A stretch of DNA of 16,508 nt from Lachnospiraceae bacterium (GTDB lineage: Bacteria; Bacillota_A; Clostridia; Lachnospirales; Lachnospiraceae): contig QXWX01000126.1 in the NCBI GenBank assembly GCA_009911175.1, positions 1 through 16,508 on the forward strand, in the 5' to 3' direction. Under the pieces are notes generated by a model. It saw only the letters and a program-made list of their open reading frames with translations, made no database searches and was not told where the DNA came from. Numbering within the stretch: the stretch's first letter is position 1; every line of letters starts with the position of its first letter. The position numbers and the translations under genes are program-made. Shown here piece by piece: positions 699 through 16,264 of the stretch.

Positions 699-1877
699 TC
701 ACTGCGCCTGTGCAAATGCATCGTCAAGTTTCTGCATATCATCACGCATCTTTTCAAACTGTGAATGTTGATAACGCTTAGAACTCTGCACTGTGCTGTG
801 TCCGCCTGTTCCGATCATAGAAAGCTCACTGAACCCTTCCACATTGGAACACAATGTAAAGTAGGTATGACGTAAGTCGTGCAAGCGATAATTCGGCAAT
901 TCCGGACAGTCATTTTCAATGAAGCGTTTGAAATTCTTATACAATGTCATCGGTGTTAACGGAGAATATGGCGCATGATTCATCAAAAATACGCTGTTGC
1001 CGCCTTTAAAGCCGGGCTTACTCTGCAGCTTCATATGCTCTTTTCTTGCCCGTTCCAAAATCTGGTAAACCGTCCCTCCAACTGCTAATGGAATCGTGCG
1101 CTTCCCGGATTTGGTCTTTGTTTCCTTCTCGATTAACTGGTCATTCACCTGCACAATGGATCTCTGTACTTTAATATATGCTCCATCCTTGTCCAAAACA
1201 ATGTCCTCCCAGCGAAGTCCTGCAAGTTCGGACCTTCTCAATCCTCCTGCAAGACAGCAAATCGCAACTAAAAGTTCCATTGCCCTGTTCTGTGTCTGGC
1301 AGGCCCGTTCCAGCATCACCTTCACCTGGCCGATTGTATAAGCATTCCCTTCCACCTCCGATGGTTTCGGCAGGCGGACAAATGCACAGGCCGTACTTTC
1401 CTGCCTTTTGATGTAGTTATCACTCATTGCCTGTTTCAAAACTGCGGATATAAAATATAGGAAGTTTCGGATTGTCTTTGGGGATTTTCCCATCTTTACA
1501 TACCGATTGACCATATCCTGCAGCACTTCTACCGTAATTTCTGTTAACGTATAATGACCAAGGGAATCCCGAACTCCATCTTTGGTCTTATACATCTGGA
1601 TGTACACCTGTTTGGTAGTTGGAGACAAGTAAAGCGTATATTTCGGAAAATATATATCCTCCACATAGTCCCTGAACAGCATTGTTTTCTTCTGCATAAA
1701 ATCTCCAAACTCTGCATTCAGATTCATTTCACAGCAAATCTTTTTGGCTGTGTCCTTGGTCGTGCCTGCCGGAAGGGAATGGTATGTCCGCTTACGCCTG
1801 CCATCCCTGGTTATATCCCGTACAATGCGGTATCGTGTCCCAGATTTTCTTTTTACTGTCTCTATGTAGAATGACAT
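699..1877 (-). CDS. int: Tyrosine recombinase (integrase) of an integrated element
   Basis: A 392-residue phage/ICE-type tyrosine integrase that would cut and rejoin att sites to insert or excise the element. Residues 1-60 look like the short arm-type DNA-binding domain and about 65-165 the core-binding SAM-like domain. The catalytic domain starts near 180. Visible active-site residues are the box I Arg in GLRRSELAGL (about R214), a likely Lys in the TKSGKRTIPL strand, the HDLRHT motif (H333, R336), the His of GGHSTVQSS (H360) and the nucleophile Tyr in KRYQHS (Y369). Length is normal and the gene is intact. The excisionase-like gene at 1896-2114 ends 18 bp upstream, so the two are probably co-transcribed. 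The att core should lie near one end of this gene; 542-698 is the non-coding stretch downstream, but I found no repeat of it in the window. Confidence 0.95.
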   Translation of the reverse strand: MSFYIETVKRKSGTRYRIVRDITRDGRRKRTYHSLPAGTTKDTAKKICCEMNLNAEFGDFMQKKTMLFRDYVEDIYFPKYTLYLSPTTKQVYIQMYKTKDGVRDSLGHYTLTEITVEVLQDMVNRYVKMGKSPKTIRNFLYFISAVLKQAMSDNYIKRQESTACAFVRLPKPSEVEGNAYTIGQVKVMLERACQTQNRAMELLVAICCLAGGLRRSELAGLRWEDIVLDKDGAYIKVQRSIVQVNDQLIEKETKTKSGKRTIPLAVGGTVYQILERARKEHMKLQSKPGFKGGNSVFLMNHAPYSPLTPMTLYKNFKRFIENDCPELPNYRLHDLRHTYFTLCSNVEGFSELSMIGTGGHSTVQSSKRYQHSQFEKMRDDMQKLDDAFAQAQ

Positions 1878-1895: not shown

Positions 1896-2114
1896 CTAAT
1901 AGTCCCGTATGGGAAATTCTTGATTTTCGGATTCATTTAGTAGCAGAGCCTCCACTTCATGCCGGATATAATAATAGGTATGTCCGATTTTTTTGTAGTG
2001 CAAATTTGTGTTGAGGAAAGCCCGAAGTTTTCGGGAATCCATATGAATGTATTCCTCCTGGATCTCTTTTACCGTAATACACATACGTTTGCTTTTTTCT
2101 GTAATTGTAACCAT
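1896..2114 (-). CDS. xis: Excisionase-like small DNA-binding protein
   Basis: A 72-residue protein with an N-terminal helical stretch (VKEIQEEYIHMDSRKLRAFL, residues 16-35) followed by KKIGHTYYYIRHEVEALL, the recognition helix and wing pattern seen in excisionases and MerR-like small helix-turn-helix proteins. Such proteins bend att DNA, favour excision and often repress the integrase promoter. The ATG at 2114 is preceded by GGAGGT at good spacing. It is immediately upstream of the integrase on the same strand, the usual xis-int order. A perfect palindrome TACAGCTGTA at 2164-2173 lies about 50 bp upstream of the start and could be an operator. Function is inferred from fold pattern and position. 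Confidence 0.8.
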   Translation of the reverse strand: MVTITEKSKRMCITVKEIQEEYIHMDSRKLRAFLNTNLHYKKIGHTYYYIRHEVEALLLNESENQEFPIRDY

Positions 2115-2682: not shown

Positions 2683-2725
2683 ATCACGAGTTTAATGGAG
2701 GTTCAAATACATCCCCTTTCCATAT
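2527..2725. repeat. Imperfect tandem duplication covering the 3' end of the replication gene
   Basis: Copy A starts near 2527 and copy B near 2636, with a period of about 108 bp. Shared blocks include AATGAATTTTTT, ACGTCCCTTGTGCCACTAC, GCCACTAAA followed by GTTACA, and GTTCAAATACATCCC. Copy B runs through the stop codon (2684-2686) into the last codons of the primase-helicase gene, so copy A carries a decayed relic of that gene's C-terminal coding end. The decay is strongest at the former coding part, while the ACGTCCCTTGTGCCACTA block is well kept, which suggests selection on that block as a cis-site. Confidence 0.75.
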
Positions 2726-5215
2726 TTTTATATATCTCTTACCGTTGCTCTTACCACGTTCTATATGTATATCGAACATATCCAGCACCGATGATGAATT
2801 AAAAATTTTTTTGCTCAAAGCATTTTCTGCTTTCACAAGAAACTTGATGTCTACTCCCATTTTCTCAGCCTGGGCATTTAACTCCACACGCAATTCCATC
2901 ATTTTTCCATAGAAGGAATGCGTTCTGTTAATAAACTCAATAAGAACACTTAAAACAGTATCTTCTTCCACCATTACTTCAAGAATATCCTCTTGATTTT
3001 TTTCATAAATTTTCAGGAATCGGTCACCGCCATATTTTAATGCTTCCGCAATAGCATAACCGAATTTGGCAAAATCAGCCATCCTTGGCAACTCCTTCAA
3101 TTCCAAGTTCTCATAGATTTCCAGTGCTTTCGCCAGGACTTTCATTGCTCTATAAAGTAAATAGGGTAAATCCCTTTTAAAGGCTGTTAAAATATCATCC
3201 ATAGTTCGCCTTTCACTGCTTTTAATACGCTTTGTGGATAGGCATATACATCTGTCCAAAAAATCTGGTCGGTTTGAAATTGTTGTAATGCCAGTAAAGC
3301 TCAATTGCGGGTTCAGGTGAATATCTACAACTTCATTATCTGAATACAATTTTCTCTTGCCATACGATCCCATCGTTATAGACATGCAAAAGAAATTTGC
3401 CATATTTTTTGTTATCCCGCCTTCTACATTATCAAAACAGACCATATATTCCCCAAACAATACAGATGCCAAATCATTTATAGAAGAAGGAAGTGCTTTT
3501 ATATCTGCACTTGATGGATCGATAAACATCTTGTCCAATCTCATATTGGTTGTTTTCGCCGACCCCCGATCACCTTTATAGTATAAAATCGGTGCCGGAA
3601 TATCACTGATAAATCGAGTAAGGAGAACGACATTGTGAAGTATCATGTCCTCTTCTTTTTCGAACTTCCAGAACTTTTTTGCCAGCTTGCGAAATGAAGG
3701 CTTTTTCTCCCCTTTGCGCACTTCCATATCCATGGGCATCACCTGCTCCATCATGTTATGCCGTTTGATAAACGGAATGGGACATTCTTCCAATATGGAA
3801 AATCCATTCTTATCAATGTGAAGTACCGTTTGTTCTTCATCCGCAAGATAATAGTACACGTGCCCGTTACTATACTTACATCTTACGGCTGGTTCTATCT
3901 TAGCACCTTCAAAGACCGCTTTTGCTTCTATGGTAGCAATAATTTGTTTCATGGCTTCTGTGCCAATTGCCTTTTCATAGCTTTTTAAAAACATTCTTCG
4001 TAGGGATTGCATATATCGGCTATCACGCACGGACATAAATTCTGTAAAACCATTTCCTAATGGAACAGAAGCATACGCATTCTCCCTTGTATCATGGAAG
4101 AAACAATGCCCCGCTTCCATAATATCTGTAAGAACAATTTGTGAGGTTGGCATGCCCTGATCTTTTTTGGATGCCTCTCTTCTATATGATTGGCTATATG
4201 CCTTCATATCTGGAAATTTTTTTAACAGACTTGCCCAGTTCTCATTTTGGCATGAATCATGATGGCATCCAGCGCAAATTTTCCCATTCGCATACTGGAT
4301 GATATATGCCCCTTTGTCTCTGCTATGTTCCTTGTTCCATGGGCACTCTGCCAAAACAAAACACGTGCCAGAATCTAATGGTTTCTCATGACTGATTTCA
4401 ATCCCATGAGAAGCACAAAACTGTCGCACATCCATCTTCATCCCTTTATACTGAGATACTTTCTTATCATCAAAAGGTTCTGCGGCAGTCGATGGAGTTT
4501 TAACTGGCGCACATAAAGAGATAATGCTCTCTATTTGCTCGGTATCTACATATTTTAATTCATCAAGTGCAGAAAGAATCTTCGACTGTCTGTGAGGTCT
4601 GTCCTCCGTCGAATCACCTTTGCATGCCGTCGTACCATACAGTTTCGTAATACGTGCAGCGTTATACGTTGTAGTATCAATCTTTACATTATCAGTGGAA
4701 AACTTCTTATCCATCTGCTCCAGAAACGTCTTGATAAGTTGTCTGCTTTCCTGTGTATTTTCCATATTAATAAGGTAGAGCAGATGAATACCATTCCCAG
4801 ACATGCACTTCACTGGCTGTGGAAATCCCTGTTCTGTCAGAAAGGATTCTACTTCCCCGGCCAAGGATTCCGCATGTGCCAACTCTTCATCTGTCGAAGA
4901 TATTCCGGCTGGACGTTCGGGATCCAGGTCAATTAAGATCCAATCTCTTCTTGCAATCTCTTTATCGGTAGTGGTATTCTGCGCCCACTCCTTTAGCCTG
5001 TTGACACTTCTACTAGCAACATCCTGTACAATAGGGTTCAATGTAAAAAATATATTGTACTTTCCATCATATCGTTTAACGGATTTATACAAATCATCTA
5101 CATTGTTAAAGTATCCGGAGATTGTACCTGCCTTTGTTTTGAGAATACGAACCTCGATATATGCACCCTCCGGATTAAAAATATCAAATAACCTATTAAA
5201 ATCTTCTTTTCTCAT
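2684..5215 (-). CDS. PrimPol (AEP) primase fused to SF3-type helicase, element replication protein
   Basis: 843 residues from the ATG at 5215, chosen because AGAAGGAAGG lies just upstream. An ATG at 5290 would add 25 atypical residues, though it also has a G-rich upstream tract. The N-terminal third resembles an archaeo-eukaryotic primase: DWILIDLDPE (about 91-100) carries the metal-binding D-x-D, and SGNGIHLLYL (about 139-148) supplies the catalytic-core His. Next is a Cys/His cluster (C291, H297, C314, C317, H318, C322) that may bind zinc. The C-terminal part is an AAA+/SF3-like helicase: Walker A GDRGSAKTT (548-556), Walker B MVCFDN (591-596), and sensor/arginine region TTISNRPDFLDRC (about 644-656). 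It would prime and unwind DNA at the element's own origin, for which the repeats at 2450-2682 are the candidate. Together with int and xis it defines an autonomously replicating integrative element or phage satellite. Confidence 0.9.
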   Translation of the reverse strand: MRKEDFNRLFDIFNPEGAYIEVRILKTKAGTISGYFNNVDDLYKSVKRYDGKYNIFFTLNPIVQDVASRSVNRLKEWAQNTTTDKEIARRDWILIDLDPERPAGISSTDEELAHAESLAGEVESFLTEQGFPQPVKCMSGNGIHLLYLINMENTQESRQLIKTFLEQMDKKFSTDNVKIDTTTYNAARITKLYGTTACKGDSTEDRPHRQSKILSALDELKYVDTEQIESIISLCAPVKTPSTAAEPFDDKKVSQYKGMKMDVRQFCASHGIEISHEKPLDSGTCFVLAECPWNKEHSRDKGAYIIQYANGKICAGCHHDSCQNENWASLLKKFPDMKAYSQSYRREASKKDQGMPTSQIVLTDIMEAGHCFFHDTRENAYASVPLGNGFTEFMSVRDSRYMQSLRRMFLKSYEKAIGTEAMKQIIATIEAKAVFEGAKIEPAVRCKYSNGHVYYYLADEEQTVLHIDKNGFSILEECPIPFIKRHNMMEQVMPMDMEVRKGEKKPSFRKLAKKFWKFEKEEDMILHNVVLLTRFISDIPAPILYYKGDRGSAKTTNMRLDKMFIDPSSADIKALPSSINDLASVLFGEYMVCFDNVEGGITKNMANFFCMSITMGSYGKRKLYSDNEVVDIHLNPQLSFTGITTISNRPDFLDRCICLSTKRIKSSERRTMDDILTAFKRDLPYLLYRAMKVLAKALEIYENLELKELPRMADFAKFGYAIAEALKYGGDRFLKIYEKNQEDILEVMVEEDTVLSVLIEFINRTHSFYGKMMELRVELNAQAEKMGVDIKFLVKAENALSKKIFNSSSVLDMFDIHIERGKSNGKRYIKIWKGDVFEPPLNS

Positions 5216-5377
5216 ATTTACCTTCCTTCTGCTACAAAGCAGTGAGATGTAAGTGTCCATGTATTCCGAGGATGAAACGTTGCTCCACATTCTTTCCCCC
5301 CCAACGTGAGGTTCTGAACAGAAGCAACGTTGATCCCACAGGACACCGTTATCTTGTTACAGACTTCTATTCCATAT

Positions 5378-6901: not shown

Positions 6902-7273
6902 TCACCTCCTCCTTTTTTTAGTATAATATACAATATTAAGGCAGTAATCGTTCGTAACCAGGTACAAATCTGAATGCCATTGTATGAATCCATTTTCATA
7001 GATAATATCCTTATACTCTGCATCTCCCAAATCAAGATGATATCTTCCCAATACCTCCAGATACAATAACTCTAATTTTTCTCCATGCTCTGGTAAGATT
7101 AAAAACACATATCCGCCATCATCTTTATCTACATCACGATCCATTCCATAGTATTTATCCAGCATATCAACTGCTTTATGTATCTCAGCTACCACCTTTT
7201 CAGGCATTCTATATTTCTTCTGTAATTCAGAAATTTTGACACATTGACTCCTCGTCCATATGCGTTCAGTCAT
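6902..7273 (-). CDS. Unrecognised 123-residue protein, paralogue of the gene at 7323-7715
   Basis: The ATG at 7273 follows AAAGGAG. The protein is soluble, with a helical N-terminus (KKYRMPEKVVAEIHKAVDML, about 19-38) and a C-terminal half rich in strands (YVFLILPEH, DLYLVTNDYCLNIVYYTKK). These blocks match GKYKIPGKVIYEVERIL, YIALIIRP and ILVLNGKYTIFVVYSMRKK in the neighbouring protein, in the same order, so the two are diverged duplicates. No catalytic motif is seen. It lies in a minus-strand operon with two microprotein ORFs downstream. Confidence 0.75.
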   Translation of the reverse strand: MTERIWTRSQCVKISELQKKYRMPEKVVAEIHKAVDMLDKYYGMDRDVDKDDGGYVFLILPEHGEKLELLYLEVLGRYHLDLGDAEYKDIIYENGFIQWHSDLYLVTNDYCLNIVYYTKKRRR

Positions 7274-7322
7274 ATCTTACTATCTCCTTTCCCAAGATAA
7301 AACCTTTTCTCTTTTATCCACC

Positions 7323-7715
7323 TTATCCCCAAATTTTTTTCTTCCTATATAAGTCTTTTTTTCTCATAGAATATACTACAAAAATTGTATATTTTCCGTT
7401 TAATACCAGAATATCGAACCATACCCAATTTCGCTTTTTCGAATTTTTCTTTTTCTTAACTGAAATCTTATGAAAATTATTATCCGGAATTTCCACCTCC
7501 GGTTCATAAATTCCTAATTCCATAAGTATGTCTATAGTATCATTTTTTATCGGACGTATTATAAGGGCAATATAGTCATTGCTTGTTTTTCTTTTATATC
7601 TTAAAATGCGCTCTACTTCATAAATGACTTTTCCCGGTATTTTGTACTTCCCCAAAATTAGATTAATCGCTTTTAATAATTCAATCTGGTATTGATTATA
7701 AATCTTTATATGCAT
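7323..7715 (-). CDS. Unrecognised 130-residue protein, paralogue of the gene at 6902-7273
   Basis: I place the start at the ATG at 7715 because GGAG lies 8 nt upstream. A longer frame from 7751 would begin inside a terminator hairpin, so I reject it. The order of elements is helix (YQIELLKAINLILGKYKIPG), strand (YIALIIRP), a very basic loop (SVKKKKNSKKRNW) and terminal strands (GKYTIFVVYSMRKK). Compared with its neighbour at 6902-7273 it is shifted to a basic charge; the other is acidic, as expected for a complementary pair. Function unknown. Confidence 0.75.
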   Translation of the reverse strand: MHIKIYNQYQIELLKAINLILGKYKIPGKVIYEVERILRYKRKTSNDYIALIIRPIKNDTIDILMELGIYEPEVEIPDNNFHKISVKKKKNSKKRNWVWFDILVLNGKYTIFVVYSMRKKDLYRKKKIWG

Positions 7716-7736
7716 ATATGTCTCCTTCCATACAAC

Positions 7737-7780
7737 AAAAAAGGGAACCACTATACAGATTATTACTGATATTGGTTCCC
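7737..7780 (-). terminator. Terminator or attenuator just upstream of the 130-residue gene
   Basis: GGGAACC (7743-7749) pairs with GGTTCCC (7774-7780). On the minus strand the stem is followed by six T (7737-7742). It is the second of two terminators after the SHOCT-protein operon and ends 22 bp before the ATG at 7715. It therefore either backs up the first terminator or acts as an attenuator in the leader of the 7323-7715 gene. Confidence 0.7.
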
Positions 7781-7802: not shown

Positions 7803-7848
7803 AAAAAGAGCATGCAGAAATCTATATTCCGCATGCTCTATATTTTTT
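7803..7848. terminator. Bidirectional rho-independent terminator
   Basis: GAGCATGC (7808-7815) and GCATGCTC (7831-7838) form an 8-bp stem. There are A5 on the left side (7803-7807) and a T-run on the right side, so the hairpin can stop transcription from either strand. On the minus strand it closes the 10136-to-7894 operon. Confidence 0.8.
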
Positions 7849-7893: not shown

Positions 7894-8610
7894 TTAGATT
7901 TTTTCTAATAGAGCTTTCTTTTTTTCTTGAAATTCCTCTTCTGTCAAAATACCTGATTCTTTTAATGATGCAAGTTTTTCGATTTGCTTTAACGCATCCG
8001 TTCCATCATTATTCTGAGAGTTATTACCATTTTTCTTCTGTTCAAATTTCTGCAATATACCATGTTGACGTAATAGTCCCATCAATTCCCGGCATTTCTT
8101 GGCTTGGTTAAATATAGTTACACCAGTAAGCATTTCAGCTCTAACCGTTAATTCTTGTCCTGTTTCTGCCTTAAAAATAATGCAGATAACATTTTCTTGT
8201 TCTTGATTTGCACTGTCACCACCACCTAAAAATACCTCGGCAGTCGTAATCGTCCTTTTTTCAATATGCAACTCCAAAACCGAATCATATGGAATATCAA
8301 ATCCTGTAAACCAGTCTGCGCTACCAGACTTTGGCAAAAAACTGAACCTGTCTGGCATAATATCGAGTAATATGTATGGACTTTTCTTTTTTCCTAACTG
8401 AAAATCGGGATGTCCCCCTTCATATGTCACTTCATATCTAATCAAGCCACCTTCCTGTGGGAGTTTATTTTGTTTAGACTGCTCAACCTTTTCACTAACT
8501 ATGGTTTTAGTTTGCTCCATTCCTGTTTTTGCAACTTGAGTTGCCTTATCAGCCATTTTCTTTGCTTTACCTAAAGCATCTGTTATGGATTCTTTATCGA
8601 ATAAACCCAT
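7894..8610 (-). CDS. SHOCT-domain protein
   Basis: A 238-residue protein. The last 34 residues (ALKQIEKLASLKESGILTEE and on to KKALLEKI) are a clear SHOCT domain, a short C-terminal helix pair found on many bacterial and phage proteins and thought to mediate oligomerisation. The N-terminus (residues 1-50) is an Ala/Lys-rich amphipathic helix that could sit on a membrane surface. The middle (about 55-180) is strand-rich, contains an LGGG loop and resembles a PH-like or beta-sandwich module, but this is a guess from pattern. It is the last gene of the five-gene operon starting at 10136, with two terminators after it. The ATG at 8610 follows GAAGG. Confidence 0.85.
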   Translation of the reverse strand: MGLFDKESITDALGKAKKMADKATQVAKTGMEQTKTIVSEKVEQSKQNKLPQEGGLIRYEVTYEGGHPDFQLGKKKSPYILLDIMPDRFSFLPKSGSADWFTGFDIPYDSVLELHIEKRTITTAEVFLGGGDSANQEQENVICIIFKAETGQELTVRAEMLTGVTIFNQAKKCRELMGLLRQHGILQKFEQKKNGNNSQNNDGTDALKQIEKLASLKESGILTEEEFQEKKKALLEKI

Positions 8611-8673
8611 TTATTAATCACCTTCTTTTAGTTATTTATTTTCGCATATTTCCATATAAGTTTATCTAACAAG

Positions 8674-8838
8674 CTAACTAATGATTTTTTTAACTATTAC
8701 ATACAAACCCACTATCACTGCAATGCAAATAATCACCCCAAGTCCAACACCAATTACTGCTATTAGAATTGGCAATACAACCTTAATAAACAATATTAGC
8801 AAAATGCCTATACATAAAATCTTTAATACAGTTTTCAT
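8674..8838 (-). CDS. 54-residue two-helix membrane protein
   Basis: An ATG at 8838 with GGAGAAGG upstream opens a 55-codon frame to the TAG at 8674-8676. The product is almost entirely hydrophobic: helix 1 is about residues 4-18 (VLKILCIGILLILFI), then K19 and P23, then a Gly-spaced second helix (about 24-49) and a KKIIS end. This is a small integral membrane protein placed between the SHOCT gene and the 71-residue gene, in the same operon. The opposite strand also has an open frame here, but that one has no ribosome binding site and reads as its mirror. Function unknown; a pore, anchor or inhibitor subunit is possible. Confidence 0.75.
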   Translation of the reverse strand: MKTVLKILCIGILLILFIKVVLPILIAVIGVGLGVIICIAVIVGLYVIVKKIIS

Positions 8839-8874
8839 CCTATTCTTTTTCCTTCTCCTTTTCTAAAAATATTC

Positions 8875-9090
8875 TCACAGACCTAATTTTTTTGTGATTT
8901 TTGCTAATTCACCTTTATCAATATCCGCATCAATACTCATATGAACATGTGCTGTTTCATCTTTGATAGCCGCACTTATTTCATGAATTTGAAAATTCAC
9001 ATCATATCCAGTCTTTTTGAACAATGTGCTTTTTATAATCTTTGCAATAATATCCTTTGTAAATTTAGTATGTATTTTCACTTCATCCAT
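8875..9090 (-). CDS. 71-residue conserved-looking soluble protein
   Basis: The ATG at 9090 is preceded by AGGAGG. The small protein has an alpha-beta pattern: KIHTKFTKDIIAKIIKSTLF helix, then two strands NFQIHEISAAIKD and HVHMSIDADID, then a short terminal helix KGELAKITKKLGL. The alternation of a basic helix with an acidic sheet face looks like a compact structural or binding domain. I cannot name a family. It is part of the five-gene operon, between the 146-residue protein and the 54-residue membrane protein. Confidence 0.75.
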   Translation of the reverse strand: MDEVKIHTKFTKDIIAKIIKSTLFKKTGYDVNFQIHEISAAIKDETAHVHMSIDADIDKGELAKITKKLGL

Positions 9091-9141
9091 GCACCCAACC
9101 TCCTAATAGAATCTTATTTATATAAAATTCTATTCATAAAA

Positions 9142-9582
9142 TTATTCATTCCGCAAATCACTTTCTAGTTCATAGATAATTCTTTCTCCAAGTATAGATG
9201 ATAAATCTAGCAATTTTTTTCGTTCTGTTTCTCGTTCTGATTTTGCTTGTGCTTTGATTATAAGCAAAGCAGAAATAGACCTATCATATAATTCCCGTTT
9301 TAATTTATGTAATCTTTTTCTTGAAGAATAATCAAACAAAAAACAAGGGCCTGTTGTTAACAGATAAGAAGGGATTGTCTTTTTTAATGATTCTGGATTT
9401 TCAACATATGCTGATAAAAAATCATCACATTTCTTCCCTTCCAGCATAGTAGAGAATTTCAAAAATGGGCTATATTTCAAAATCCTGGTTGGATATTTTG
9501 CCACAATTTCTATTTCTAAAACGGCTTCCTTAACGTATTTAATGCATTCTTCATTAGGATAAAAGACTTTATTTATATCCAT
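9142..9582 (-). CDS. 146-residue soluble paralogue of the glycine-zipper protein
   Basis: I take the ATG at 9582, which has GAGGG 5 nt upstream. A GTG at 9594 overlapping the previous stop codon as GTGA is an alternative that adds 4 residues. Near the N-terminus it has PTRILKYSPFLKFS and at the C-terminus YELESDLRNE. These match PTRTIKDSPLIEVFS and CELESDLLM in the protein encoded just upstream, while the hydrophobic centre of that protein is replaced here by a polar segment. A basic helix (SSRKRLHKLKRELYDRSI, about 86-103) precedes a long charged helix. The two look like membrane and soluble versions of one scaffold. Function unknown. Confidence 0.8.
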   Translation of the reverse strand: MDINKVFYPNEECIKYVKEAVLEIEIVAKYPTRILKYSPFLKFSTMLEGKKCDDFLSAYVENPESLKKTIPSYLLTTGPCFLFDYSSRKRLHKLKRELYDRSISALLIIKAQAKSERETERKKLLDLSSILGERIIYELESDLRNE

Positions 9583-9590
9583 AGAATCCC

Positions 9591-10136
9591 TCACATCAGT
9601 AGATCAGATTCCAATTCACAAATAACTTTTTGTAACATTATATCCAGTCCCTTTAAAATATCTTTTCGCTCCGGGGATACTTCATCATTGTCTGTACATT
9701 TTTTCAATTCTGCTTCAACTAATGGACATTTTTCCTTTGCTTCATTATATAAACGCTTTTTTTCTTGACGTAGCTGCTTTTTCTTGATTTGTTTTGCTAC
9801 AGCAAGTCCTACTCCTGCTAGACCGGTAACAGGAGCTGCCAATACCAAAACTCCTGCCGCCATTCCACCACCTACAATGGCTCCTGCTGCCGCAAGTGCT
9901 GATGTGATACCTGCCGCAGACAATCCCACAGTACCTAATCCATATAAAGCTAAAAAAGATACACCTGCACCACTACCTGTGCCTATTGCAGCAGAAAAAA
10001 CTTCTATCAATGGACTATCCTTTATTGTTCTGGTTGGATCGCCTAATGTAATTGATGCTTCATTAATAATATTTACCACTGGTTGCAATGAATCCATATT
10101 TGGGAAATTCATTTTTTCTTTGTTTGTTTTTCTCAC
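9591..10136 (-). CDS. 181-residue glycine-zipper membrane protein
   Basis: It starts at a GTG (10136) with AGGAGG 8 nt upstream, as first gene of the divergent operon. Residues 1-48 are polar and include PTRTIKDSPL. Residues about 50-114 are a Gly/Ala-rich hydrophobic block with many small-xxx-small repeats (GTGSGAGVSF, AAAGAIVGGGMAAG, GLAGVGLAVA), enough for two or three packed membrane helices. Next comes a strongly basic turn (KQIKKKQLRQEKKR) and a charged helical C-terminus ending ELESDLLM. Glycine zippers are known to drive tight helix packing in channels and membrane-damaging effectors. This makes a pore-forming effector or membrane-remodelling protein plausible but unproven. Confidence 0.8.
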   Translation of the reverse strand: MRKTNKEKMNFPNMDSLQPVVNIINEASITLGDPTRTIKDSPLIEVFSAAIGTGSGAGVSFLALYGLGTVGLSAAGITSALAAAGAIVGGGMAAGVLVLAAPVTGLAGVGLAVAKQIKKKQLRQEKKRLYNEAKEKCPLVEAELKKCTDNDEVSPERKDILKGLDIMLQKVICELESDLLM

Positions 10137-10175
10137 TGTTTTATCCTCCTATGTATGGTATTTTTGTACAGTTTT

Positions 10176-10253
10176 TATATACAGTATATATCTACACATC
10201 GATTATACCATTTATATCCACTGTTTACAATAGTAGTAGAAATAAAATATCAT
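10176..10253. promoter_or_regulatory. Overlapping divergent promoters with a palindromic operator candidate
   Basis: On the minus strand TTGTAA (10225-10230), a 17-bp spacer and a consensus TATAAT (10202-10207) would drive the five-gene operon. On the plus strand TTTACA (10224-10229), an 18-bp spacer and TATCAT (10248-10253) would drive the XRE gene. The two -35 boxes overlap, so the promoters must compete. A perfect palindrome TATATACAGTATATA (10176-10190) lies downstream of the minus-strand -10 box and is a good candidate for the XRE protein's operator. Confidence 0.7.
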
Positions 10254-10277
10254 ACTAAAATAGGAGGATTTTAAAAA

Positions 10278-10524: not shown

Positions 10525-10574
10525 ATAGGAGAACCTATATATTCCGTTGGTTCTCCTATTTTCTGGTTTTTAAG
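10525..10574 (+). terminator. Terminator between convergent XRE and DUF1643 genes
   Basis: An 11-bp perfect stem (ATAGGAGAACC at 10525-10535, GGTTCTCCTAT at 10549-10559) is followed on the plus strand by TTTTC and TTTTT. It lies just after the XRE stop codon. The T-run is interrupted, so strength is uncertain. Confidence 0.65.
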
Positions 10575-13414: not shown

Positions 13415-13535
13415 CTGCTGTAAGAATCATTATTTTATACCTTTTTATATTACTGCAATTTTTACTGCGCTTAAAATATTACGGGGTTCAATTAAAATAT
13501 TATCTGGCTAATGAACTGAACTACTTTCAAGCTAA

Positions 13536-13718
13536 TCATGCTGAATATTTTTCATTCACATATCCGGTAGCCACTTCCTTAGAGAGTTCAAATCTTTCCA
13601 TGATTCTCTCTATAATAGTTGGATCATCAATATTACATTCACGATAAGTTGCAATCGCTGTTCTAATCGAAGCTCTAAATGCAATATCCTTCGCAAATTC
13701 ATCCATAATTTTACTCAT
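13536..13718 (-). CDS. Stand-alone duplicate of the Rpn C-terminal domain (Rpn_S-like)
   Basis: A 60-residue protein from the ATG at 13718, which has GGGGTG upstream. It is a tandem duplicate of the last 52 residues of the adjacent Rpn protein: both begin MSKI, share TYRECNIDD-TIIERI-ERF and end in a Y/V-rich helix. The ribosome binding region (GGGGTGAAGAAA before ATG) is copied too. In E. coli, Rpn nucleases carry an internally translated C-terminal protein, Rpn_S, that inhibits the full-length nuclease. This gene looks like that small protein made independent. It carries a short insertion (about residues 10-20) compared with the Rpn tail. It could be an antitoxin reserve, or just a decaying duplication. 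Confidence 0.7.
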   Translation of the reverse strand: MSKIMDEFAKDIAFRASIRTAIATYRECNIDDPTIIERIMERFELSKEVATGYVNEKYSA

Positions 13719-13744
13719 TTTCTTCACCCCATTAAAGCGCCAGA

Positions 13745-13903
13745 TTATACTAAACATTTATCTTTTACGTATTCTACAGCCGCTTCATTAGTAACTTGGA
13801 ATCTTTCCTTGATTCTTTCTATTATAGTAGCATCATCAATATTACATTCCCGATAAGTTCTAATTGCAGCCATAATTGCAATTTCTTCTCCTATCTTACT
13901 CAT
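13745..13903 (-). CDS. Internal in-frame start inside rpn, Rpn_S-type small protein
   Basis: Codon 216 of rpn is ATG (13901-13903) and is preceded by GGGGTGAAGAAA, a Shine-Dalgarno-like stretch embedded in the coding sequence (residues EGVKK). Translation from it would give 52 residues beginning MSKIGEEIAIM. The same upstream sequence and MSKI start were copied in front of the stand-alone duplicate at 13536-13718, where it must act as the start. This matches the intragenic antitoxin principle shown for E. coli Rpn proteins. Confidence 0.6.
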   Translation of the reverse strand: MSKIGEEIAIMAAIRTYRECNIDDATIIERIKERFQVTNEAAVEYVKDKCLV

Positions 13904-15767: not shown

Positions 15768-16040
15768 CTACATATTAAACAAATCCGAATGTGTACCGGT
15801 TCTGGAAAGCTCCAAATAATCTCCATTATAATGATAAATTAATAACCAATCCGGTGAGATATGACATTCTCTGAATCCTTTGTATTCCCCCCTTAAATCG
15901 TGATCTTTGTTCTTAATATCCAAAGGTTCCGGTTTCATCAATTTCTCAAGAACAAATTCGAAAAGCTGGAAATCATATCCTCTCTTTTGGCATAGCTTTA
16001 TATCTTTCTTTATTTTCCCGGAATATTTCAAGATATACAT
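15768..16040 (-). CDS. yafQ: YafQ-family toxin (RelE superfamily mRNA endonuclease)
   Basis: A 90-residue protein with the full YafQ consensus: HDLRGEYKGFRECHISPDWL, LIYHYNGDYLELSRTGTHSD and a final LF. The catalytic set known for E. coli YafQ (H50, H63, D67, W68, H87, F91) aligns here as H47, H60, D64, W65, H84 and F88 with a constant offset of 3, so the toxin should be active. It would cut mRNA at the ribosome when free of its antitoxin. The ATG at 16040 lies 2 bp after the antitoxin stop, and GGAGGG in the antitoxin's last codons is its ribosome binding site, so translation is coupled. Confidence 0.93.
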   Translation of the reverse strand: MYILKYSGKIKKDIKLCQKRGYDFQLFEFVLEKLMKPEPLDIKNKDHDLRGEYKGFRECHISPDWLLIYHYNGDYLELSRTGTHSDLFNM

Positions 16041-16042
16041 CC

Positions 16043-16264
16043 TTATCCCTCCAGCATAGCGGAAATAAAATCGTGCGCAGTGCCTTCAAAGACTGTACCG
16101 CCTCCATTTTCCAATTCCTGCATAGCCTCTATTGTTTCGTCATTTGGTATCTTTTCAGAAATCTCATTCCCAGCGGTCACTCCTTGCAGATACGCAATTA
16201 CATATTCTATCTTATAATCTGGAACAGCTTCTAATAGCTGCATTGCTCTTTCTCTATTACTCAC
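16043..16264 (-). CDS. Antitoxin of the YafQ-type module
   Basis: A 73-residue protein starting at a GTG (16264) with AGAGGA upstream. The N-terminus MSNRERAMQLLEAVPDYKIE is a short helical dimerisation or DNA-binding region. The centre is IPNDETIEAMQELENGGG, and the C-terminus GTAHDFISAMLEG is the toxin-wrapping tail typical of the Firmicutes partners of YafQ toxins (DinJ/RelB-like in role, though not a typical ribbon-helix-helix sequence). The gene comes first in the operon, as is usual, so the antitoxin is made in excess. Confidence 0.88.
   Translation of the reverse strand: MSNRERAMQLLEAVPDYKIEYVIAYLQGVTAGNEISEKIPNDETIEAMQELENGGGTVFEGTAHDFISAMLEG

Follow-up and report, generated by a model that had tools for sequence, protein, structure and literature searches.

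The window analysed here, a stretch of 16,508 nucleotides (nt) from a Lachnospiraceae bacterium (assembly GCA_009911175.1, contig QXWX01000126.1), contains an operon of five minus-strand genes, GZ, SP, S71, TM54 and SHOCT, which runs from position 10136 to position 7894 beside the divergent gene of an XRE-type regulator. We tentatively interpret this operon as a repressor-controlled accessory unit on an integrative element, built around GZ, a short relative of the BnzA protein of the Bunzi antiphage system (BnzA/BnzB) whose group is distinct from the GZ proteins linked to BnzB. Judged from the sequences, the likeliest core is the pair GZ and SP, which would form a Bunzi-derived membrane unit with SP partly in the place of BnzB. 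By analogy with Bunzi, the operon probably has an antiphage role. The original prediction had recognised no described system with this gene content. The key gene does have known kin, however: GZ looks related to BnzA, and the relatives of GZ are tied to BnzB; the notion of an operon wholly without known relatives was rejected on account of this linkage.

The operon and its control

The operon is real and its genes exceed chance open reading frames (ORFs); the five packed genes and the divergent XRE gene were confirmed where they had been predicted (Table 1). The GZ gene overlaps SP by 4 nt, the remaining gaps measure 51, 36 and 63 nt, and Shine-Dalgarno-like stretches lie 5' of GZ, S71, TM54 and SHOCT. 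The XRE protein would hold the operon down, and relief from it would permit expression. Promoter-like boxes face both ways between GZ and the XRE gene, but overall such boxes were no more frequent than chance would give (26 found versus 29.0 expected in a pattern scan). The terminators of the original prediction stand as far as folding is concerned, the hairpins 3' of SHOCT and of the XRE gene being more stable than shuffled sequences; the hairpin stretches were selected visually, and all three were absent from the output of the pattern scan.

Relationship of GZ to BnzA and BnzB

In the AlphaFold2 (AF2) model of GZ, helices occupy residues 14-32, 107-148 and 155-180, and the predicted local distance difference test (pLDDT) is below 50 at residues 50-114. 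The hydropathy maximum (Kyte-Doolittle) is 2.19. GZ had been described as a glycine-zipper protein. A hydrophobic region rich in glycine and alanine (Gly/Ala-rich) is present, but strict GxxxG spacing occurs five times against a shuffle mean of 3.9, and 34% of shuffles of the same segment reach as high a count; 'Gly/Ala-rich hydrophobic region' is therefore the safer label. Among 5530 candidates, 1918 were homologues of GZ at E values up to 0.001. GZ is 57-94% identical to 13 members of its own group, and homology to the GZ family (short BnzA-like proteins) extends over its full length. No solved structure matched BnzB or GZ below E 0.18.

Against the PADLOC profile of BnzA, GZ scored 1.7e-7, with residues 36-109 aligning to positions 294-372 of 544, in the middle of BnzA. 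Eight scanned GZ relatives (two short paralogues left out, the fusion protein of locus L035 counted) gave E values from 3.6e-16 (L039) to 0.034 (P0019). The GZ profile gave a weak match (5e-4) to L098, a Lactococcus plasmid with a full-size Bunzi pair (BnzA 1.8e-126, BnzB 5.4e-153).

The partner gene is the second line of evidence. GZ loci were gathered from phages, plasmids, viral contigs and genomes and scanned with profiles of GZ and BnzB. BnzB lay directly 3' of GZ or one gene further at all 42 strong GZ loci (some 29 without near-copies), the BnzA-type gene preceding BnzB as it does in L098. This link is not built in, because the 42 loci were collected by GZ and not by BnzB. Two of the BnzB partners were tested in PADLOC (4.7e-65 and 4.7e-64), and the others were assigned by a home-made profile of 28 BnzB sequences. 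The sequence ends inside BnzB at L005, L006 and L022, and BnzB of L034 consists of two open pieces. Judged by the tree described below, the 42 include the near-copies L020/L034, L024/L025, L027/L028, L031/L038, L001/L054, L018/L052, L005/L022 and L039-L045. Outside the 42 stand L047 (a weak GZ match of 4e-5, without BnzB), L089 (a match of 29 residues) and L096-L099, which were obtained through BnzB. On one of these, the IncHI1B plasmid L097, a gene for a GZ-like membrane protein of 165 amino acids (aa) precedes BnzB. The window shares its GZ family with short GZ-BnzB pairs of Clostridia genomes, phages and plasmids (the 42 loci and also L097), whereas its own GZ lies across a deep split of the tree and has no BnzB. 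It departs further from Bunzi in that GZ has 181 aa and BnzA 549 aa, and in the presence of SP, S71, TM54, SHOCT and an XRE gene of its own.

In the maximum-likelihood tree (76 GZ rows), the window and P0001-P0023 (24 rows) stand apart, with support of 100/100, from 52 rows among which are all 39 BnzB-linked sequences. The tree uses 36 of 120 listed GZ proteins and omits L023, L035 and L046; its midpoint root serves for drawing only, and the window's GZ was flagged for an unusual letter make-up. GZ matches were found in 5/391, 4/398, 0/70, 7/319, 0/8 and 0/75 genomes of overlapping samples, none of those placed belonging to the window's group; apart from one fragment match these samples yielded BnzB-linked GZ only. 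In viral contigs no GZ match exceeded 58% identity, and a motif pattern gave 0 exact matches there. Absence of BnzB consequently holds for one locus of the window's group, the window itself, because the neighbourhoods of the other members were out of reach.

Several results speak against our interpretation. With a hidden Markov model (HMM) of 28 BnzB sequences and a threshold of E 10, no match was found in any of the window's six frames, so the operon is not Bunzi as described. The match between GZ and BnzA covers just 74 residues of the Gly-rich region, and comparison of GZ with full BnzA by hhalign aligned 27 columns at 50.6% probability. Close relatives of GZ score lower on BnzA (P0003 5.5e-5, P0019 0.034). 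GZ also matches the LeoBC profile of PADLOC (0.0014), as do several relatives, which hints at an effect of composition. The co-occurrence of all five families that the original prediction called for was not found either. In searches against SP, S71, TM54 and SHOCT (phmmer, E up to 1e-3; insensitive for TM54 and the fast-changing SP), none of 47 GZ/BnzB loci, many of them near-copies, gave a match to any of the four, and none of 16 S71 loci matched GZ, SP or SHOCT. As the match to BnzA is short and Gly-rich, the BnzA-likeness of GZ leans on the partner gene elsewhere as much as on sequence. A BnzB gene that was present and has decayed in the window was rejected, the six frames being without a trace of it.

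Further variety was seen at other loci. The phage records L096 and L099 carry a BnzB relative with no match to the GZ profile nearby and with other small genes upstream. A BnzB relative is present in 491 plasmid records, mostly of Enterobacterales by organism name; L097 and L098 were opened besides L002. At L035 (6155-7534) a GZ part is fused behind an ADP-ribosylglycohydrolase domain (1.5e-34) and followed by BnzB, a further Bunzi-like architecture. Regulators of the HTH type lie directly upstream of the pair in L001, L030, L090 and L091 (HTH_3 in L091); those of L001 and L030 end in a Gly/Ala-rich hydrophobic stretch and look as if tethered to the membrane. Seven similar viral contigs (L039-L045) carry the pair, in some of them next to an ORF that we take to be Mor-like, as in Mu-type phages. 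No PHROGs family matched GZ or BnzB of L039 at E up to 0.01.

SP as a paralogue of GZ

As originally predicted, SP is a GZ paralogue that lacks the hydrophobic region: the two proteins match in BLASTP (5e-8) and in a profile comparison by hhalign (2.4e-5), and the hydropathy maximum of SP is 0.60 versus 2.19 for GZ. Four of 36 candidates were SP homologues, a count which includes near-copies and is understated because shared 5-mers were required; a search in plasmids led nowhere. Beyond the near relatives P0123-P0126, the best matches of SP (P0014, P0006, P0004, P0002) are GZ proteins from the window's group, which suggests that SP arose by duplication inside this group. At some loci elsewhere, a short GZ-similar ORF lies between GZ and BnzB (L003/L023, L027, L028, L036, L054, L091). 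Descent of SP from such paralogues was rejected, since, up to E 1, SP matched GZ proteins, mostly from the window's group, and none of these ORFs; the rejection is weak, as short diverged proteins can escape BLAST.

GZ would insert into the membrane by its Gly/Ala-rich region and assemble via its C-terminal helices. SP would stand where short GZ paralogues and BnzB are placed at other loci. Because SP shares the N- and C-terminal parts of GZ and lacks the membrane part, it may mix with GZ and gate the assembly in the membrane. The 4-nt overlap, the shared ends, the missing membrane part of SP and the small adjoining XRE regulator would also suit an addiction-like pair, in which GZ were a membrane-damaging toxin and SP a co-translated soluble antidote that stabilises the element. 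We regard this as unlikely, as GZ relatives elsewhere are accompanied by BnzB instead, and a toxin-first order is, to our knowledge, less usual in type II pairs.

The distal genes

S71 belongs to a phage family and matches phrog_18243 over its whole length. Two of three candidates, near-copies included, were S71 homologues, and relatives were found at 15 viral loci and in 1 of 391 genomes (L057). Relatives of GZ, SP or SHOCT were found at none of the 16 loci, eight of which are near-identical. The viral neighbourhoods contain many small genes and many proteins of 230-310 aa with a hydrophobic N-terminal stretch, presumably of the DUF6353 type, although no search named them so. Searches for S71 in plasmids and in phages and a single-sequence scan of viral contigs led nowhere. 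At L057 a hydrophobic ORF of 55 aa adjoins the S71 homologue and has 29% identity to TM54, without detection by phmmer; weakly, this is suggestive of a pair formed by S71 and TM54. TM54 is the weakest of the five genes, because it rests on hydropathy and on that ORF, which phmmer missed.

The SHOCT domain (PF09851) of the last gene product lies above the Pfam cut-off, in agreement with the original prediction (2.8e-8, 33.7 bits against a cut-off of 27, residues 209-235). Residues 17-236 match phrog_2700 (7.1e-13), and residues 92-235 are 29% identical to a protein of L048 that has DUF4429 and SHOCT domains. The middle of the window's protein is possibly DUF4429-like; unlike in the DUF4429-SHOCT proteins, DUF4429 itself was not detected directly by the Pfam scan. 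The first 90 residues had no match in the loci compared. Matches were found in 10 of 245 genomes, mainly by the tail, and in three plasmid records, by the tail only; a search in phages led nowhere. The AF2 model is poor (pLDDT 38). In passages of PMC3581485, the discoverers of SHOCT tested oligomerisation and found none. SHOCT-like domains are predicted as inner-membrane anchors and occur alongside envelope-stress genes, according to passages of PMC11237479. SHOCT, and perhaps S71 and TM54, may serve as a sensor or scaffold attached to the membrane.

For these three genes accretion is almost as likely as the interpretation that we prefer: GZ and SP would be one small unit, and the phage-related S71 with TM54, and SHOCT, would be unrelated passengers on a shared transcript. 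Accessory regions of mobile elements often contain passenger genes that share a transcript. S71, TM54 and SHOCT matched at 0 of the 47 GZ/BnzB loci, S71 occurs in phages and in a genome without relatives of GZ, SP and SHOCT, L057 keeps S71 beside its hydrophobic ORF without GZ, SHOCT relatives match mainly by the tail, and the intergenic gaps reach 36-63 nt. On the other side, the five genes are co-directional with a hairpin 3' of the last, no minus-strand terminator-like site inside the operon was listed by the pattern scan, which also missed the end hairpins, and, among the five products, three resemble membrane proteins or membrane anchors.

Comparison with known systems and possible function

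Returning to the repressor-controlled accessory unit, its likely effect would be to interfere, by way of the membrane, with an invading phage or a rival element. The membrane-acting, defence-like role of the original prediction is plausible in view of the place of GZ near Bunzi. For a self-contained system of five genes, the evidence amounts neither to proof nor to a complete refutation. Without BnzB and with a short part of BnzA, the operon falls outside Bunzi, yet it may act alike. It is doubtful whether one can go further and see in the window's GZ group a separate membrane immune module without BnzB, controlled by SP as an effector copy devoid of the membrane part, with SHOCT, S71 and TM54 as its own sensor and scaffold parts.

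Passages of a 2026 review count Bunzi among the systems of unknown mechanism (PMC12926258). A TerB domain is mentioned for the Bunzi system in passages of PMC10952713. The Pfam scan of the operon proteins found no TerB; this has little weight, as full-size BnzA and BnzB of L098 likewise gave none at E up to 0.1. SP, S71, TM54 and SHOCT matched 0 PADLOC families each at E up to 1. In the open-licence literature, no title among the matches listed dealt with this operon or with the mechanism of Bunzi.

A module for membrane stress or superinfection exclusion, which would alter the envelope and spare the cell, is the least probable of the explanations considered. The small hydrophobic protein, the phage-related S71 and the SHOCT protein, in view of the envelope-stress neighbours of its domain, would be compatible with it; against it, Pfam scans of 20 window proteins found no PspA, LiaF or similar protein, and GZ points to Bunzi.

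The host element

By its ORFs and profile scans, the window holds an accessory element with a tyrosine integrase, a primase-like gene and numerous small genes (Table 1). No tRNA was found in the window, and no Rfam family reached its gathering score. Direct and inverted repeats at 2448-2715 (83 nt present twice at 78%, inverted arms of 28 nt) adjoin or overlap the end of the primase-like gene and are a possible replication origin. At 13535-13876, a partial tandem copy of 133 nt (76%) of the end of a PDDEXK_2 transposase-like gene gives rise to an orphan tail ORF of 73 aa. The stretch 15768-16264 holds a YafQ-type toxin gene (4.4e-31) and, upstream of it, a small gene without an NCBIfam match that may encode its antitoxin. 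Two genes directly 3' of the operon hairpin (6902-7751) had no confident family match in profile scans. The neighbouring proteins of 142 and 123 aa were rejected as clear paralogues (BLASTP 0.019).

Table 1. Features of the operon and of its host element (window coordinates)
Feature	Position	Strand	Description
GZ, 181 aa	9591-10136	-	Helix at the N-terminus, then hydrophobic region rich in Gly and Ala (about residues 45-115), then helices at the C-terminus; short, BnzA-related
SP, GZ paralogue lacking the hydrophobic region	9142-9594, or ATG at 9582	-	Overlaps end of GZ by 4 nt; start of homologue P0123
S71, soluble protein of phage family, 71 aa	8875-9090	-	phrog_18243 1.2e-26, positions 1-71 of 72
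TM54, hydrophobic, probably membrane-spanning, 54 aa	8674-8838	-	Kyte-Doolittle maximum 3.2
SHOCT protein	7894-8610	-	Amphipathic-looking N-terminus, beta-rich middle, C-terminal SHOCT domain
XRE-type regulator, 78 aa	10278-10514	+	HTH_26 3e-16
GZ-XRE intergenic region	10137-10277		Promoter-like boxes: minus 10230-10202, plus 10224-10253; palindrome TATATAC-A-GTATATA 10176-10190
Terminator-like hairpin with U tail, 3' of SHOCT	7807-7839	-	Fold -20.7 kcal/mol, z -5.7 versus shuffles
Terminator-like hairpin, 3' of XRE	10525-10559	+	Fold -17 kcal/mol, z -4.1 versus shuffles
Third hairpin	7743-7780		z -4.9 versus shuffles
Tyrosine integrase	699-1877		Phage_integrase 7.9e-13
Small possible excisionase	1896-2114		No Pfam match
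Large primase-like protein	2684-5290		Primase and DnaB-like matches, both weak

Implications

The short GZ-BnzB pairs represent a compact form of BnzA without its long ends, found in roughly 1-2% of genomes of three Clostridia-centred samples and also in phages and plasmids. If it is true that the membrane part of Bunzi works without BnzB, the operon of the window would separate the effector from its partner, and a minimal effector together with its soluble paralogue would become testable.

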